From positions 64,001-93,487 of the IMG/VR virus record IMGVR_UViG_3300037475_000079: 29,487 nucleotides of DNA; one strand, written 5' to 3'. A program made the translations under genes and the position numbers. How positions within the stretch are numbered: position 1 is the stretch's first letter; every line of letters starts with the position of its first letter. Below, one piece after another: positions 1,760 through 20,949 of the stretch. The notes below the pieces were generated by a model that did no database searches, was not told the origin of the DNA, and saw nothing but the letters and a program-made list of their open reading frames with translations. This stretch comes from a virus.

Positions 1760-2860
1760 CTATGATTCGACCGCTGCTTCAACGTCCAAAAACGCCCCTA
1801 TGAACTCGGCCGCGACCTGCGGGACGATAGCGTTACCGTAGCCGCGCAGTCGTCCCACTCGATTGGGAACCCCATGAGCCAGCGGGGATGTGCCGGATTC
1901 AACACGCCGCGCTTTTCCATCTCGGCAGGGGATGAGGTCGAAGTCGGACCAGGGACTTGATGTGCAACCTGGTTCGGTAGCTGCTCCCCCTTCTTGCCGC
2001 CCCCGCGTTCCGCATAGCTCTTGAGATTCGGCCCGCGGTAGTCCCTGGCTGCCGGGGTCGCCCACCCGCCGCAGAGAACGGCAACATCGTCCAGATTCGC
2101 ACTCCGTTTCGGCAGTCCGTCCCGATGTTGATAGATTCTCTTCAAGGCTGCTTCCGGCGTCAGTGTTCCATGATGACTGCTGTCTGGCGTCGGCCATCCG
2201 GCAAGTACAGCGGCAGTCTGAAGCGTGAAATGTTCCCCCACATTCCCCAGCGGATTCGGGCCGCCACTCGCGTTCTGAACCGCCGGAGTGGGCCACCCAG
2301 TAGAGCCGCTGCCTGACATGCGGTGCGCCGACGCTGTGTGCGCCCAATACGACCGACCCGCAGGTGTAGCCTTCTCCTTCCAGATCCGCGAATACTCCGT
2401 CGAGCCAACCGTGGCCAATCGCACTTTCAACCTGTTCGCCAAAGACAATCCCAGGATGGCGCTCGCGGACGAGCCGGAACATTTCCGGCCAGAGATGCCG
2501 CTTGTCGTTCGTTCCTTCTCCCCTGCCGGCTTCTGAGAACGGCTGGCACGGACAACTTCCGGTCCAGACTTCTCGATCGAGCGGCCAGCCGGCGAGAGTG
2601 AGGGCATATTCCCAACCCCCGATGCCTCCGAAGAAGTGGCATCGTCGGTATCGAATAAGGTCGTCTGCCGTGACATCGACAATGCTCCTGTCGTCAACCT
2701 TGGCCGCCGGGTACAACTTGCCCAGCCAAGCCGCTGCGAACCGATCGTTTTCGTTGAAATAGGTCGTTTGATTCATGATGTCGCGATAACCGCAGTCATT
2801 GCGTTTCCGATCGTTTTTCCGCAGTTTTGAAACACCGACTAATTGATAGTCCACGCACAT
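1760..2860 (-). CDS. dcm: C5-cytosine DNA methyltransferase (Dcm/phage type)
   Basis: This enzyme transfers a methyl group from SAM to C5 of cytosine in DNA. The motifs occur in order: motif I FGGIGG (about residues 77-82), motif IV PCQPFS (about 104-109, catalytic Cys), motif VI EQVE in place of the usual ENV (about 142-145), motif VIII VRQRLYW (about 182-188), and a C-terminal RGYGNAIVPQVA matching motif X. The start at 2860 (366 residues) has GGCGGGA upstream and lies 10 bases after the previous stop. The internal ATG at 2776 gives the N-terminus usual for the family, MNQTTYFNEND, but lacks a ribosome site. No restriction enzyme is adjacent, so it is probably a self-protecting orphan enzyme. 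Most of the gene is overprinted by a second open frame, 1798-2676. Confidence 0.92.
   Translation of the reverse strand: MCVDYQLVGVSKLRKNDRKRNDCGYRDIMNQTTYFNENDRFAAAWLGKLYPAAKVDDRSIVDVTADDLIRYRRCHFFGGIGGWEYALTLAGWPLDREVWTGSCPCQPFSEAGRGEGTNDKRHLWPEMFRLVRERHPGIVFGEQVESAIGHGWLDGVFADLEGEGYTCGSVVLGAHSVGAPHVRQRLYWVAHSGGSEREWRPESAGECGGTFHASDCRCTCRMADARQQSSWNTDAGSSLEENLSTSGRTAETECESGRCCRSLRRVGDPGSQGLPRAESQELCGTRGRQEGGAATEPGCTSSPWSDFDLIPCRDGKARRVESGTSPLAHGVPNRVGRLRGYGNAIVPQVAAEFIGAFLDVEAAVES
1798..2676 (-). CDS. Overprinted gene nested inside dcm, same strand, shifted frame
   Basis: A 292-residue frame runs on the same strand as the cytosine methyltransferase but shifted by one base, covering its catalytic motifs. 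Its ATG is preceded by a textbook AGGAG with eight bases between them (AGGAG at 2685-2689), which is not expected inside a gene by chance. The product, beginning MSRQTTLFDTDDATSS, contains WKEKATPAGRSYWAHTASA, three repeats of the type GW(P/A)TP at roughly 20-60 residue spacing, and a C-terminus with NPAHPRWLMGFPIEWDDCA. From memory, phage proteins with this layout recur in databases beside dcm genes, which supports real dual coding; I could not search. The function is unknown. Confidence 0.6.
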   Translation of the reverse strand: MSRQTTLFDTDDATSSEASGVGNMPSLSPAGRSIEKSGPEVVRASRSQKPAGEKERTTSGISGRKCSGSSASAILGLSLANRLKVRLATVGSTEYSRIWKEKATPAGRSYWAHTASAHRMSGSGSTGWPTPAVQNASGGPNPLGNVGEHFTLQTAAVLAGWPTPDSSHHGTLTPEAALKRIYQHRDGLPKRSANLDDVAVLCGGWATPAARDYRGPNLKSYAERGGGKKGEQLPNQVAHQVPGPTSTSSPAEMEKRGVLNPAHPRWLMGFPIEWDDCAATVTLSSRRSRPSS

Positions 2861-4318: not shown

Positions 4319-4506
4319 CACTCACCGTCCTTTCCACCGAAGAATCGTTTCCAAGTTTCGTATGGGATTTTCCCGGAGCCTTTACACTGGGCACAGGCGG
4401 AATAAGTCGGGCCGTCACATGCTCCCTTTGGTGCTTCAGAAACCTGCCCGCTGCCGTTGCAAATGGGACACTTCACGTCGTCATGTGTCTTGTCGTGGTT
4501 CTCCAT
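4318..4506 (-). CDS. Small double zinc-knuckle protein (DnaJ-like CxxCxGxG)
   Basis: The product is 62 residues with two knuckles, CPICNGSGQV (about residues 13-22) and CAQCKGSGKI (about 38-47). These match the paired CxxCxGxG motifs of the DnaJ central domain, so one zinc ion is probably bound. No J domain is present. Stand-alone versions are common in phages and may act as small protein- or nucleic-acid-binding modules; the function is not established. AAGGGG lies upstream of the ATG. It sits between two microproteins and is coupled to the next gene. Confidence 0.7.
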   Translation of the reverse strand: MENHDKTHDDVKCPICNGSGQVSEAPKGACDGPTYSACAQCKGSGKIPYETWKRFFGGKDGE

Positions 4507-6441: not shown

Positions 6442-7539
6442 TTAGTCGGTGAATAGTGGAGCCTGTGCAATCGCAATCCGTCGCCTCGATAAATCCACTT
6501 GCGATTGCCTTAAGTCGATTCCCATTGCCTTCCGTCCGCATTCAATCGCTGATTTCAAAGTCGTGCCACTTCCGCAAAATGGATCTAGCACAATCCCGCC
6601 TGGAGGACAGAACGATCGAATCAGGAACTCACACAAGTCTTCTGGATAGGGGGCTTCGTTCTCGTGGCAGATTTTGTCGCCCATGACTCCACCGCCTACG
6701 ATGCAGTCGATAACGTCGGACGGCTCTCCAAGGATTTCAGAAACCTGCTCGGCTGTGTATTTTTGTTGGATGACGTTTCCAGGATTGGCAATTGCAGGCG
6801 GCTCGCTCGACAGCATGGTTATGGGCCTGCCTTCTTTGTCGTGGCCCATGGACGTTAGTTTTCTGCCGCGATCTTTATGTTTCCCATTTTTCTTTCTGCC
6901 CGCACCGCTTGAATCATGCGGCGTACCGCCCCATTGATCTCGACCGTTGACAACAACATGCGAGGGCCGCTTACCACCGCAAGTCACATTGTCCTTATCG
7001 CCACCAGTCGCGCCCGAATCAATCGGATGACCCCATTGATTGACGCGAGTTCCATTCGTCAGCCGGTTCGCCATTTCGCCACCCGGTGCCCATTTCGGCG
7101 GATGGCCCATCGCGGTATTGTCTGCCCATTCGAGTTTTCCGGGAGTCGCCGCAATCACGAATTCGTAGTCGTTCCTCAACCATTCGTTTCCGCCGCTTCC
7201 GGGAATCCCGATGCGTCGGAATATCGGCGGCTTCCTGAAGTTCACTCCCGCCCGATGAAGATCAGCCATCAGCAAAACAGGCGTCATGTCGTACCGGAAA
7301 TTCTTCGTCTTGCCTTCGATGACCCAGAATACCGGCCCCGCAGAAACTCGGACACACTCCATGAACCGCTCGAATGCCCACTTGACGTACTCTTCTCCTT
7401 TGAGCTTGAACCCGATTCCATACGTCCTAGCGTCAACGTAGGGCGGCGACGACATCACCATCGCAACCGATTTAGGCGGCATGGCCTTCATCAGTTCCAG
7501 GCAGTCACCGCATAGGATTTCCGTTTTCGCTCGTCTCAC
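6442..7539 (-). CDS. Beta-class DNA methyltransferase (N4-cytosine or N6-adenine)
   Basis: The product is 365 residues and methylates an exocyclic amino group of a DNA base. The catalytic motif SPPY (residues 31-34) comes first and the SAM-binding motif DPFCGSGTT comes near residue 310, which is the permuted beta-class order. SPPY rather than DPPY favours N4-cytosine as target but does not prove it. The middle (about 145-260) is an extended, Gly- and Asn-rich insertion that probably serves target recognition. The start is a GTG with AAGGA nine bases upstream. No restriction endonuclease is adjacent, so it is probably a phage protective enzyme acting with the cytosine-C5 enzyme of the same operon. 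Confidence 0.92.
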   Translation of the reverse strand: MRRAKTEILCGDCLELMKAMPPKSVAMVMSSPPYVDARTYGIGFKLKGEEYVKWAFERFMECVRVSAGPVFWVIEGKTKNFRYDMTPVLLMADLHRAGVNFRKPPIFRRIGIPGSGGNEWLRNDYEFVIAATPGKLEWADNTAMGHPPKWAPGGEMANRLTNGTRVNQWGHPIDSGATGGDKDNVTCGGKRPSHVVVNGRDQWGGTPHDSSGAGRKKNGKHKDRGRKLTSMGHDKEGRPITMLSSEPPAIANPGNVIQQKYTAEQVSEILGEPSDVIDCIVGGGVMGDKICHENEAPYPEDLCEFLIRSFCPPGGIVLDPFCGSGTTLKSAIECGRKAMGIDLRQSQVDLSRRRIAIAQAPLFTD

Positions 7540-9697: not shown

Positions 9698-11071
9698 TCA
9701 TCTCTCGAATCCGCTGGCATATTGGCTGTACTGGCTAACGGCAGTTTGGTCCCGCTTTCCTGCATCACGAAAGGTCATGAGAGATTTATCGAACATAAAC
9801 TTGACTTCGCCGATTGGTCCGTTGCGATGCTTGGCGACGTTCAGATACATCACCCCCGGCTCGTCATTGGCGTCATAAACGTCTGGCCTGTGCATCAGCC
9901 AAACAGCGTCGGCGTCGGCTTCGATGCTTCCGCTCTCACGCAAGTCTGACAATCGCGGTGGTCGAACGGTGCCCTTCTCGCTCTCGCGGTTCACCTGGGC
10001 CAGACAGAGAATCGGTATTCCAAGAGACTTCGCCAGTCCCTTCATGCGGCGACTGCACTCGGCGACTTCCTGCTCCCGGCTGTTGCGGTACGCTGCGCCA
10101 GTTGCCAATTGGAGATAATCGACTACCAACAATTCAATCTTGTCGCGGCGGCGCATAAGGCGTGCCGACGACTCCAAGGCACTGATTGACCGATTCAGGC
10201 TCTCGTCGATCATGAATGGCAGTTCCCCAAGCCGCGCGGACGCCTCGACTAGGCTGTCAATCTGTGCTTCAGACATCCCGCCGCCGCGCATAATGTGCGA
10301 TGAAAGTCGCGCCTCTGCGGACAACAGACGTTCAGCGATCTCCATCCGGCTCTGCTCCATAGAAAGCATTCCGACTGGTATATTACGCTGCGCAATTTTG
10401 AGCCCGATGTTCACGGCGAACGCGGTCTTTCCAATCGACGGACGAGCAGCCAATATGGCGACGTTTCCAGGTTGCAGACCAGTCATAATTCCATCGAGAG
10501 TCTGAAAGCCAGTCATCAGGCCCATGCCCCTGCCTGATGTCAGCCGGTTCATGGCGTCGATTAGCACATCACCGAGTGATTGCGTCTTGCTCGCAACGCT
10601 GCGCTCCAGGATAGCGCCAATGCTCGTACTGACTCGCCCAAGCGATTCGTCGATGTCGGCGGTCATTTCATAGGCATCCCGCACAGCGGACGTTCCAGCG
10701 GCCGATAGCAGCCTGCGGCGCGACCGCTCGTCAACAGTACCGGCATAGACCTGGGAATGCGCGCCGTGGGGAACGGACTGCATGCATTCTTCAATGAGCG
10801 CATACGTCTCGTCGTCGAACCTGTCTGTAGCCTTCAGTCGATCCGCGATGGCGATTGGATCGAGCGGCTTGTTCTGCGATGACAACCACAGCAATGCTCC
10901 CCAGATGTCGCCGTGCTCTTGCAGGTAAAAATCCTGCTGTGAAATACGGACTCCGATTTCGTCGATGGCTGAAGGAAACAGCAGCACACTTCCGATCAGG
11001 CACTTTTCGGCGTGCAAATCCTTCGGTGGCTCACGCGATGAAATCGGCCTATCTCGCTCCGTCGTAATCAT
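9698..11071 (-). CDS. dnaB: Replicative DNA helicase DnaB
   Basis: The product is 457 residues, normal for DnaB. The N-terminal domain spans about residues 15-105 (AEKCLIGSVLLFPSAIDEIG and a distal helical hairpin). The RecA-like motor follows, with Walker A ARPSIGKT (209-216) and Walker B LLVVDYLQL (314-322). A conserved LAQVNRE box and SGSIEADAD lie near the C-terminal third. It would unwind the phage fork as a hexamer on the lagging strand. The ATG at 11071 overlaps the initiator stop as ATGA and has AAGGA upstream. The initiator gene immediately before it is the expected loader or recruiter. Confidence 0.97.
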   Translation of the reverse strand: MITTERDRPISSREPPKDLHAEKCLIGSVLLFPSAIDEIGVRISQQDFYLQEHGDIWGALLWLSSQNKPLDPIAIADRLKATDRFDDETYALIEECMQSVPHGAHSQVYAGTVDERSRRRLLSAAGTSAVRDAYEMTADIDESLGRVSTSIGAILERSVASKTQSLGDVLIDAMNRLTSGRGMGLMTGFQTLDGIMTGLQPGNVAILAARPSIGKTAFAVNIGLKIAQRNIPVGMLSMEQSRMEIAERLLSAEARLSSHIMRGGGMSEAQIDSLVEASARLGELPFMIDESLNRSISALESSARLMRRRDKIELLVVDYLQLATGAAYRNSREQEVAECSRRMKGLAKSLGIPILCLAQVNRESEKGTVRPPRLSDLRESGSIEADADAVWLMHRPDVYDANDEPGVMYLNVAKHRNGPIGEVKFMFDKSLMTFRDAGKRDQTAVSQYSQYASGFER

Positions 11072-11865
11072 TCTGAATCCTTTCGTTCGTCGCACAGCGG
11101 GAATATCTCTGCCGGAGGATTTTCAATCGTTTTAAGACGCTCTCGATATGCAGCTAAACGCTTCGCTGCTAACTGCCGCTGGTCTCCAGTCAGGTTTCTC
11201 CAGCTTTGTTTGGCGACGAGTCCCTTGAACCATTCAGAGCCTTTATTGGCTTCCACGTCGCGGATTGCGGCCCCGATGAATCGAAGCAGCGTTTTCTCGT
11301 CCGGTGGAATCAGGTTGGGGTGCTCGCGGTGACAAGCCCTGTGGATTGCGCACGTAGCTTCAATCGACTTTAGGTTTTCAGTGGTCACCGATTCCAGACT
11401 TTTGAACCAAACAACTCCGTTTTTTCGTCCGTTGGATTTCTTTCCCTCATCATCAATCAAACAAGCAATACTCTTCTCTTCTCTAGGTAACGCTCTGCTA
11501 ACGCTGGCAGCGTTAGCAGATTTATTCTTGTGTTCGGCTACTCTAATCGCCGTTAAGCACCGCTTTTTAGCACTCTTTCCGTTATGTCTGTCGAAACGAG
11601 GAAACATGATTCCATCGGTTTTTATGTCCAGCCAACCGGCTTTTTGCATGGCTTGCGCGAAGTTTGGCACACCCAGGTAACGATCAACCCAATTTTCGGT
11701 AACGCCAACTGCGTTACCGTCCTCGGTGTGCTTGTCAGCCCATGTCCAGAGCCTATATAGCTTGCCGACAACCAAGTCCTCGCCAATGTTTACGGCAACT
11801 CCAATTGATATGACGGCAGGGTCGTCAATCAGGTCGGTTCTCATCTTGATCCAATCCCCCGCCAT
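11068..11865 (-). CDS. Phage replication initiator (lambda O-like in layout)
   Basis: The product is 265 residues. Residues 1-110 form a winged-helix-type N-terminal domain, beginning MAGDWIKMRTDLIDDPAV and with VVGKLYRLWTWADKH, GVTENWVDRYLGV and MFPRFDRHNGKSAKKR. This block is seen in phage proteins placed before dnaB. A Lys/Ser-rich linker follows (about 105-155), then a helical C-terminal domain probably used for helicase contact. The ATG lies 11 bases after the previous stop, with AGGAG eight bases upstream. Iteron-like repeats lie inside the coding sequence, within the N-terminal domain and the linker, which suggests that the replication origin is within this gene, as in lambda. Confidence 0.8.
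   Translation of the reverse strand: MAGDWIKMRTDLIDDPAVISIGVAVNIGEDLVVGKLYRLWTWADKHTEDGNAVGVTENWVDRYLGVPNFAQAMQKAGWLDIKTDGIMFPRFDRHNGKSAKKRCLTAIRVAEHKNKSANAASVSRALPREEKSIACLIDDEGKKSNGRKNGVVWFKSLESVTTENLKSIEATCAIHRACHREHPNLIPPDEKTLLRFIGAAIRDVEANKGSEWFKGLVAKQSWRNLTGDQRQLAAKRLAAYRERLKTIENPPAEIFPLCDERKDSE
11486..11719 (-). repeat. Iteron-like repeats and palindromes inside the initiator gene, candidate origin
   Basis: Six copies of G(G/C)TAACG(C/A) occur here in both orientations, at 11486-11493, 11497-11504, 11510-11517 (reversed), 11676-11683, 11698-11705 and 11711-11718 (reversed). Pairs of copies build a perfect 12-bp inverted repeat with one central base (11495-11519) and a perfect 9-bp inverted repeat with a five-base spacer (11697-11719). 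T/A-rich tracts lie between the two clusters. This is what an initiator-binding origin would look like. The assignment is inference from layout and not a proof of origin activity. Confidence 0.5.
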
Positions 11866-20037: not shown

Positions 20038-20949
20038 ATGGACGCGACCGTTCGCAGTCAATTTGAGAGCCTGTTTCGTCCCCACAAACTGCGGTTCAAA
20101 AAGCCTGGCACAATCTACAAGTACGGCCTCGAACTGGACCGGCTCGATAAGTTTCTCGGGCGTCCGGCGATGCTCACAGACCTGAATGACGCGACCGTGG
20201 GCGATGCAGCCGAATGGGTTCTCTCGAAAGACGGACTAGGCTTGTCGGTCGAATCGACGCGAGGATTCATCGGCCGTATCTGCAAGGTCTGGGAATTCCT
20301 TGCCAGAAAATTGGTTGTCCGCGAGTTCCCGACAATCGAAAACCTTCGGAAGCAGAAGCGGACCCCGCGAGCCTGGACGAGAGCGCAGCTTGCAACGCTC
20401 TGGCAGGCTCTACAGCGTCAGCCGGGGATGATTGGCGATGTTCCAGCGGCTGATTGGTTTTGCAGTCTGCACGCGGTCCTGTGGTGCTCTGGCGAGCGAA
20501 TCGGCGCGTTGCTCAAGGCACGATGGCCAGATGTTGACCTGTCGTCGGGATGGCTTACGATTCAGCCTGACGACAGGAAGGGCGGATGTGTCGGGCGCGT
20601 CTACCGCCTGACGCCTGACGCTCGGGAATGGCTCGCCAGAATCAAGCATCCGACGCGAGAACTGGTATGGCCCTGGCCGCTATCGCACGGCAGACTCTGG
20701 GGCAGATACCGCGAATTGCTCAATGATGCCGGCTTAGAAAGCGGGCGCGACAGGATGTTCCATTGTGTTCGCAAGAGCCACGCGAGCCACCTGGAGGCGG
20801 CTGGCGGAAACGCAACAGAAAGCCTCGGTCACAAATCACGCCAGACGACGATTGATTCGTACCTGGACGTTACGATTACCGGAGCCGGCGACCAGACGAG
20901 CAAGCTATTCCCGCTTGGCGATTCCGGCGACGGCCCGCGAGCCGCGTGA
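20038..20949 (+). CDS. int: Tyrosine-type site-specific integrase
   Basis: The product is 303 residues and catalyses integration and excision of the phage genome. The N-terminal SAM-like core-binding domain spans about 10-100. The catalytic domain has Arg154 (SGERIGALL), Lys181 (DDRKGG), His242 and Arg245 (FHCVRKSHAS), His265 (SLGHKS) and nucleophile Tyr275 (TIDSYLD), the full set. GGAGAG lies about seven bases before the ATG. It is divergent from the repressor. The attachment site is expected nearby, but no core could be identified without the host sequence. Confidence 0.93.
   Translation: MDATVRSQFESLFRPHKLRFKKPGTIYKYGLELDRLDKFLGRPAMLTDLNDATVGDAAEWVLSKDGLGLSVESTRGFIGRICKVWEFLARKLVVREFPTIENLRKQKRTPRAWTRAQLATLWQALQRQPGMIGDVPAADWFCSLHAVLWCSGERIGALLKARWPDVDLSSGWLTIQPDDRKGGCVGRVYRLTPDAREWLARIKHPTRELVWPWPLSHGRLWGRYRELLNDAGLESGRDRMFHCVRKSHASHLEAAGGNATESLGHKSRQTTIDSYLDVTITGAGDQTSKLFPLGDSGDGPRAA

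Follow-up and report, generated by a model that had tools for sequence, protein, structure and literature searches.

A reading frame nested in a phage cytosine methyltransferase gene very probably encodes the motif IX subunit of the same enzyme

C5 cytosine methyltransferases carry motif IX shortly before motif X, and in M.EcoHK31I (YGGCCR) the small chain reportedly comes from a different frame within the large-chain gene (Lee, Kam and Shaw, 1995). Long, deeply conserved overlaps on the same strand are rare and usually disputed. The alpha chain of M.EcoHK31I holds motifs I–VIII and X together with a predicted target-recognition domain (TRD), with motif IX in the small polypeptide, and M.AquI (CYCGRG) is a C5 enzyme split after motif VIII, with motif IX on its beta chain (PMC3404938). 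Among phages, Paenibacillus phage Redbud has a comparable pair, gp50 and gp51, in which gp51 is a nested homologue (phrog_1008) of the frame described below; it is annotated 'g50 internal gene' and hypothetical, with no role proposed.

The locus analysed here lies in a 29,487-nucleotide window, part of a 93,487-base virus record, and comprises a methyltransferase gene (F1, dcm) with a second frame (F2) nested inside it. Its features are as follows.

1760–2776, minus strand: F1 (dcm), proposed alpha subunit; ATG at 2776, stop ending at 1760; C5 cytosine methyltransferase of 338 residues
1798–2676, minus strand: F2, proposed beta subunit; ATG at 2676, stop ending at 1798; 292 residues in the +1 frame, wholly within F1
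2685–2689, minus strand: AGGAG, Shine-Dalgarno-like, 8 bases 5' of the F2 ATG
2534–2560, minus strand: F1 motif IV, GSCPCQPFS, which includes the catalytic PC; from sequence
2317–2481, minus strand: F2 residues 66–120, a conserved segment of helix and beta-hairpin that shares its DNA with F1 motifs VI–VIII
2284–2298, minus strand: first GWPTP of F2, residues 127–131; F1 wobble base frozen at F2 residue 131
2185–2199, minus strand: second GWPTP of F2, residues 160–164; F1 wobble bases frozen at F2 residues 160–164
2053–2067, minus strand: third repeat of F2, GWATP, residues 204–208; F1 wobble base frozen at F2 residue 208
1940–2278, minus strand: F1 residues 167–279, linker predicted to be disordered (AlphaFold2); its bases also code for the F2 repeat region
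1849–1905, minus strand: F2 motif IX, VLNPAHPRWLMGFPIEWDD, with invariant columns; located ahead of motif X in relatives with one chain or two genes
1787–1855, minus strand: F1 motif X, GRLRGYGNAIVPQVAAEFIGAFL, from sequence and predicted structure

A sequence-only reading of this DNA had described a 292-codon frame one base out of phase with dcm on the same strand, lying over the catalytic motifs, with an AGGAG at eight-base spacing before its ATG, three GW(P/A)TP repeats and a C-terminal block, and this layout was recovered in full: the frame occupies 1798–2676 of the minus strand in phase +1, the AGGAG is at 2689–2685, the three repeats are present, the block RWLMGFPIEWDDCA is F2 residues 265–278, and F1 motifs I, IV, VI, VIII and part of X fall inside the overlap.

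F1 contains motifs I, IV, VI, VIII and X and lacks both motif IX and a folded TRD. The division resembles that of M.EcoHK31I, whose large chain likewise has motifs I–VIII and X without IX and whose small chain likewise carries IX and is reportedly encoded within the large one in another frame, the motif likeness being drawn from the published division. The systems differ in that M.EcoHK31I belongs to a restriction-modification system, whereas the window gene belongs to a phage and no endonuclease was identified for it, and in that the predicted TRD of M.EcoHK31I lies on its large chain, whereas the corresponding stretch of F1 is predicted to be disordered. The M.AquI division differs further, as its beta chain also has motif X, which in the window remains on F1 with F2 fully nested; M.AquI-type division, with IX and X together on beta, was found instead in actinophage relatives. 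Mycobacterium phage ShiLan gp70 resembles the window pair in its PTP repeats, its motifs IX and X and its homologous alpha core, but is a single chain, and only the F2 N-terminal segment is left in its +1 frame.

Family searches placed F1 in PF00145 (Pfam, E = 2.7e-18, residues 69–168) and phrog_363 (PHROGs, E = 2.3e-69). Its AlphaFold2 model, mostly confident over residues 1–166 and confident again in the C-terminal helix, matched the HaeIII and HhaI methyltransferases in the PDB, and the intervening residues 167–279 (pLDDT about 30), a disordered stretch of about 110 residues, occupy the place where a single-chain enzyme has its TRD. F2 matched phrog_1008, a PHROGs family labelled DNA methyltransferase (E = 3e-28, residues 6–281), and gave no match to Pfam, NCBIfam or PDB sequences. 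Predicted alone, F2 reached a pLDDT of 60.9 and a pTM of 0.27, with residues 66–120 as the best part (block pLDDT up to 92), and this low-confidence single-chain model returned nothing below E = 3 from the PDB.

The identity of F2 is indicated by its C-terminus. Motif IX was looked for in F1 and found to be absent, though motif X is present, and F1 does not hold motifs I–X in one chain as canonical single-chain enzymes do. The F2 C-terminus reads LNPxxxxWLMGFPxxW, which is motif IX; the C-terminal end LNPAHPRWLMGFPIEW is the most conserved part of the F2 family, and L259, P261, W266, L267, G269, P271 and W274 are invariant across 108 sequences. In ShiLan, Catdawg and E. coli Dcm, 31–33 residues separate motif IX from motif X. 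Homology links F2 to the motif IX region, which lies after motif VIII in fused relatives and before motif X in relatives with two genes.

Relatives with two genes are exemplified by the mycobacteriophage proteins Catdawg gp5, Artemis2UCLA gp89 and Dorothy gp72, each encoded by a second gene that only partly overlaps its partner, which has motifs I–VIII only. These actinophage proteins carry an IX-like sequence followed by motif X. Together with Eesa gp40 they match the F2 profile (E 2e-8 to 4e-17), and the C-terminus of three of the four matches the motif X part of the F1 profile; in Catdawg gp5, which shares phrog_1008 with the window F2, motif X was seen by inspection. Eesa gp39/gp40 was considered as a non-overlapping pair and dropped, since the gp40 frame extends upstream into gp39. 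The annotated starts of gp40 in this Arthrobacter phage and of Dorothy gp72 appear to be placed too far downstream: in both, the likeness to F2 continues with the open frame into the partner gene upstream.

Fused forms occur as well. ShiLan gp70 and the IMG/VR relative L388 are single chains in the order motifs I–VIII, F2-like repeats, IX and X, and in L191, L025 and L026 the F2 frame itself continues into motif X. The absence of IX from F1, taken with the two-gene and fused relatives, points to F2 as the motif IX part of the methyltransferase written in a second frame. From sequence, structure prediction and comparison with related systems, F2 is very probably the beta subunit of a two-polypeptide C5 methyltransferase, nested in the +1 frame of the gene for its own alpha subunit.

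In ShiLan, L383–L386 and L407, motif IX is fused to alpha and the F2 N-terminal segment is nevertheless still present in the +1 frame, although L388 is without it. As the segment is kept despite the fusion, it probably does more than carry motif IX and may contribute to folding or target choice. An unlikely extension of this idea is that residues about 66–120, kept opposite motifs VI–VIII even in such relatives, form a functional module of their own and that dual coding may be what is maintained, for example to allow the exchange of two-frame specificity cassettes as one DNA block. Elsewhere in the overlap, ARDYRGPNLKSYAERGGGKKGEQLPNQV (window 1972–2061, F2 residues about 206–235) recurs almost unchanged in F2 proteins that are otherwise very distant (L004, L011, L016, L017 and L020). 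F1 has a corresponding conserved block, as though a two-frame coding cassette had been exchanged between genes.

The retained N-terminal segment, which stays in the +1 frame of relatives with motif IX already joined to alpha, would also suit a regulator or anti-defence protein that is overprinted on dcm and distinct from the enzyme. This is close to the role first suggested for F2, a modulator of the methyltransferase or a blocker of host defence, and here the sequence-only reading was not borne out: the C-terminal half of F2 shares homology with the part of single-chain relatives that holds motif IX, a motif that alpha lacks. A separate regulator is consequently improbable.

Whether subunit or regulator, F2 behaves as a coding frame. 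With the synonymous codons of the window dcm permuted, the F2 frame acquired a mean of 4.6 stops and stayed open with P = 0.0018 (this gene alone), and over 268 loci it contained 0 stops against 4.56 expected per locus under the same permutation; the +2 frame of these loci held 14.3 stops per locus, and the frame corresponding to F2 in E. coli dcm, a single-chain enzyme, holds 14. Identity among F2 sequences was 0.55, compared with 0.30 when synonymous codons were permuted. An open F2 frame lay within a dcm, in phase +1, at all 283 loci fetched by F2, and because these had been fetched by F2 the census was repeated from dcm alone, with the N-terminal catalytic part as query; an F2 match in phase +1 was present at 80 of 80 loci, a handful of them broken. 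Among the broken frames, F2 is split by a stop in L330, F1 has a stop with F2 open in L357 and L362, and F1 is broken or frame-shifted in L290 and L339; these may be sequencing errors or decaying genes.

Selection on the F2 protein was visible at F1 wobble positions, which in phase +1 coincide with the second bases of F2 codons. Four-fold sites of F1, compared in 102 independent pairs, differed by 0.567 (5') and 0.631 (3') outside the overlap and by 0.362 and 0.293 inside it. Syntenic neighbour genes, tried as a further four-fold control, gave no support to the argument, with a divergence of 0.252, lower than that of the overlap; only 25 genes entered this control, and as they were judged to come from the closest pairs they are not time-matched. 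The argument uses instead the dcm flanks and a site-by-site wobble test. This test, which needs no rate baseline, considers the third positions of conserved four-fold F1 codons among dcm genes less than 75% identical to each other (143 genes at first alignment). Thirty-three wobble positions were frozen, each at a conserved F2 residue and all from F2 residue 66 on, including 11 of 30 over residues 66–120; none was frozen among 13 sites upstream of F2 or 36 over residues 1–65 (0/49 together). At F1 V116, for instance, nearly every one of the 143 genes has GTT because F2 requires Leu83, and the wobble base of F1 G302, which corresponds to F2 Gly269, shows zero variation in 133 genes. The Shine-Dalgarno sequence at the F2 start of relatives is modestly stronger than the synonymous-codon null (mean −3.56 versus −2.70 kcal/mol, P = 0.002), but as the N-terminal stretch is without constraint, conservation does not pin down which codon is the start.

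Judged from these sequence comparisons, F2 is a protein-coding, conserved gene under joint selection with dcm. The early proposals that F2 was no chance frame, that similar proteins occur beside phage dcm genes and that two proteins are jointly selected have thus held up: the homologues lie beside or within these genes, codon-position selection freezes F1 wobble bases at conserved F2 residues across dcm homologues, and synonymous variation does not freely break the frame. Nor are the homologues confined to shadows of dcm, as shown by the partly overlapping Catdawg gp5, Artemis2UCLA gp89 and Dorothy gp72 and by ShiLan gp70 and L388, where F2-like sequence lies within one chain.

Natural fusions (ShiLan gp70, L388, L191) raise the question of whether F2 is made only by ribosomal frameshifting from F1, yielding an alpha–beta fusion. 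Such an origin is very unlikely. Constraint on F2 starts at residue 66, opposite F1 motifs VI–VIII, so that a shift early enough to include that segment would cost the fusion its catalytic residues; a fusion of the window type would moreover lack motif X, and F2 has its own AGGAG and ATG. Least credible of all, indeed next to untenable, is a non-coding shadow kept open and similar by the dcm protein sequence and codon bias, for although nearly all F2 homologues overlap dcm, whose conservation alone would give some similarity, and residues 1–65 show no extra constraint, the absence of stops, the excess identity, the 33 frozen wobble sites, the 14 stops in single-chain E. coli dcm and the fused and partly overlapping homologues all speak against it.

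If F2 is the beta subunit, F1 would supply the SAM-binding and catalytic motifs I–VIII and motif X, and F2 would supply motif IX. Most likely F2 would also provide a large part of the target-recognition module, through its helix–hairpin segment and GWPTP repeat region. Target recognition by F2 is the weakest step of the proposal, because F2 alone folds poorly and the TRD of M.EcoHK31I has been placed on the large chain (PMC3404938). F2 would be initiated separately at its own AGGAG and ATG, and the two chains would assemble in trans as a heterodimer forming one active enzyme, as published for M.EcoHK31I. The assembled enzyme would methylate the phage DNA, presumably as protection against host restriction.

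Other genes in the window include a second, different DNA methyltransferase-like gene (6445–7539, minus strand; phrog_67, E = 9e-35) and a 62-residue CxxC protein (4321–4506, minus strand) whose likeness to the DnaJ-type zinc region falls below the Pfam cut-off (E = 2.5e-5). A replication block comprises a DnaB-like helicase (9701–11095) and a replication initiator (11071–11865), and an integrase-like gene (20038–20946, plus strand; phrog_1, E = 1e-25) lies on the opposite strand, which suggests a temperate phage.

Homologues of F2 were found in at least 267 phage records, in 237 matching stretches in genomes of bacterial species and in at least 569 IMG/VR matches, and the F1/F2 overlap is kept across phages and prophages of Proteobacteria, Bacillota, Actinomycetota, Cyanobacteria and others. 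PHROGs already has the frame as a family (phrog_1008). The homologue is present and unannotated in Salmonella phage epsilon15, EBPR podovirus 2, Acinetobacter phage ABMM1 and S9-5, and other public records call it hypothetical. The literature searched yielded no description of the F2 frame in phages, nor of its breadth across them or of the nested, partly overlapping and fused series.

A nested split design known from one bacterial enzyme, M.EcoHK31I, proves to be the norm among the phages of a very large family, and here there is a clear reason for joint selection, as both frames would yield parts of one enzyme. Since the second gene is often missed or called hypothetical, a phage methyltransferase cloned as recoded DNA of just the annotated gene would be expected to seem inactive. 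As nested, partly overlapping and fused versions coexist, the way in which a split enzyme evolves through frame changes can be tested directly.
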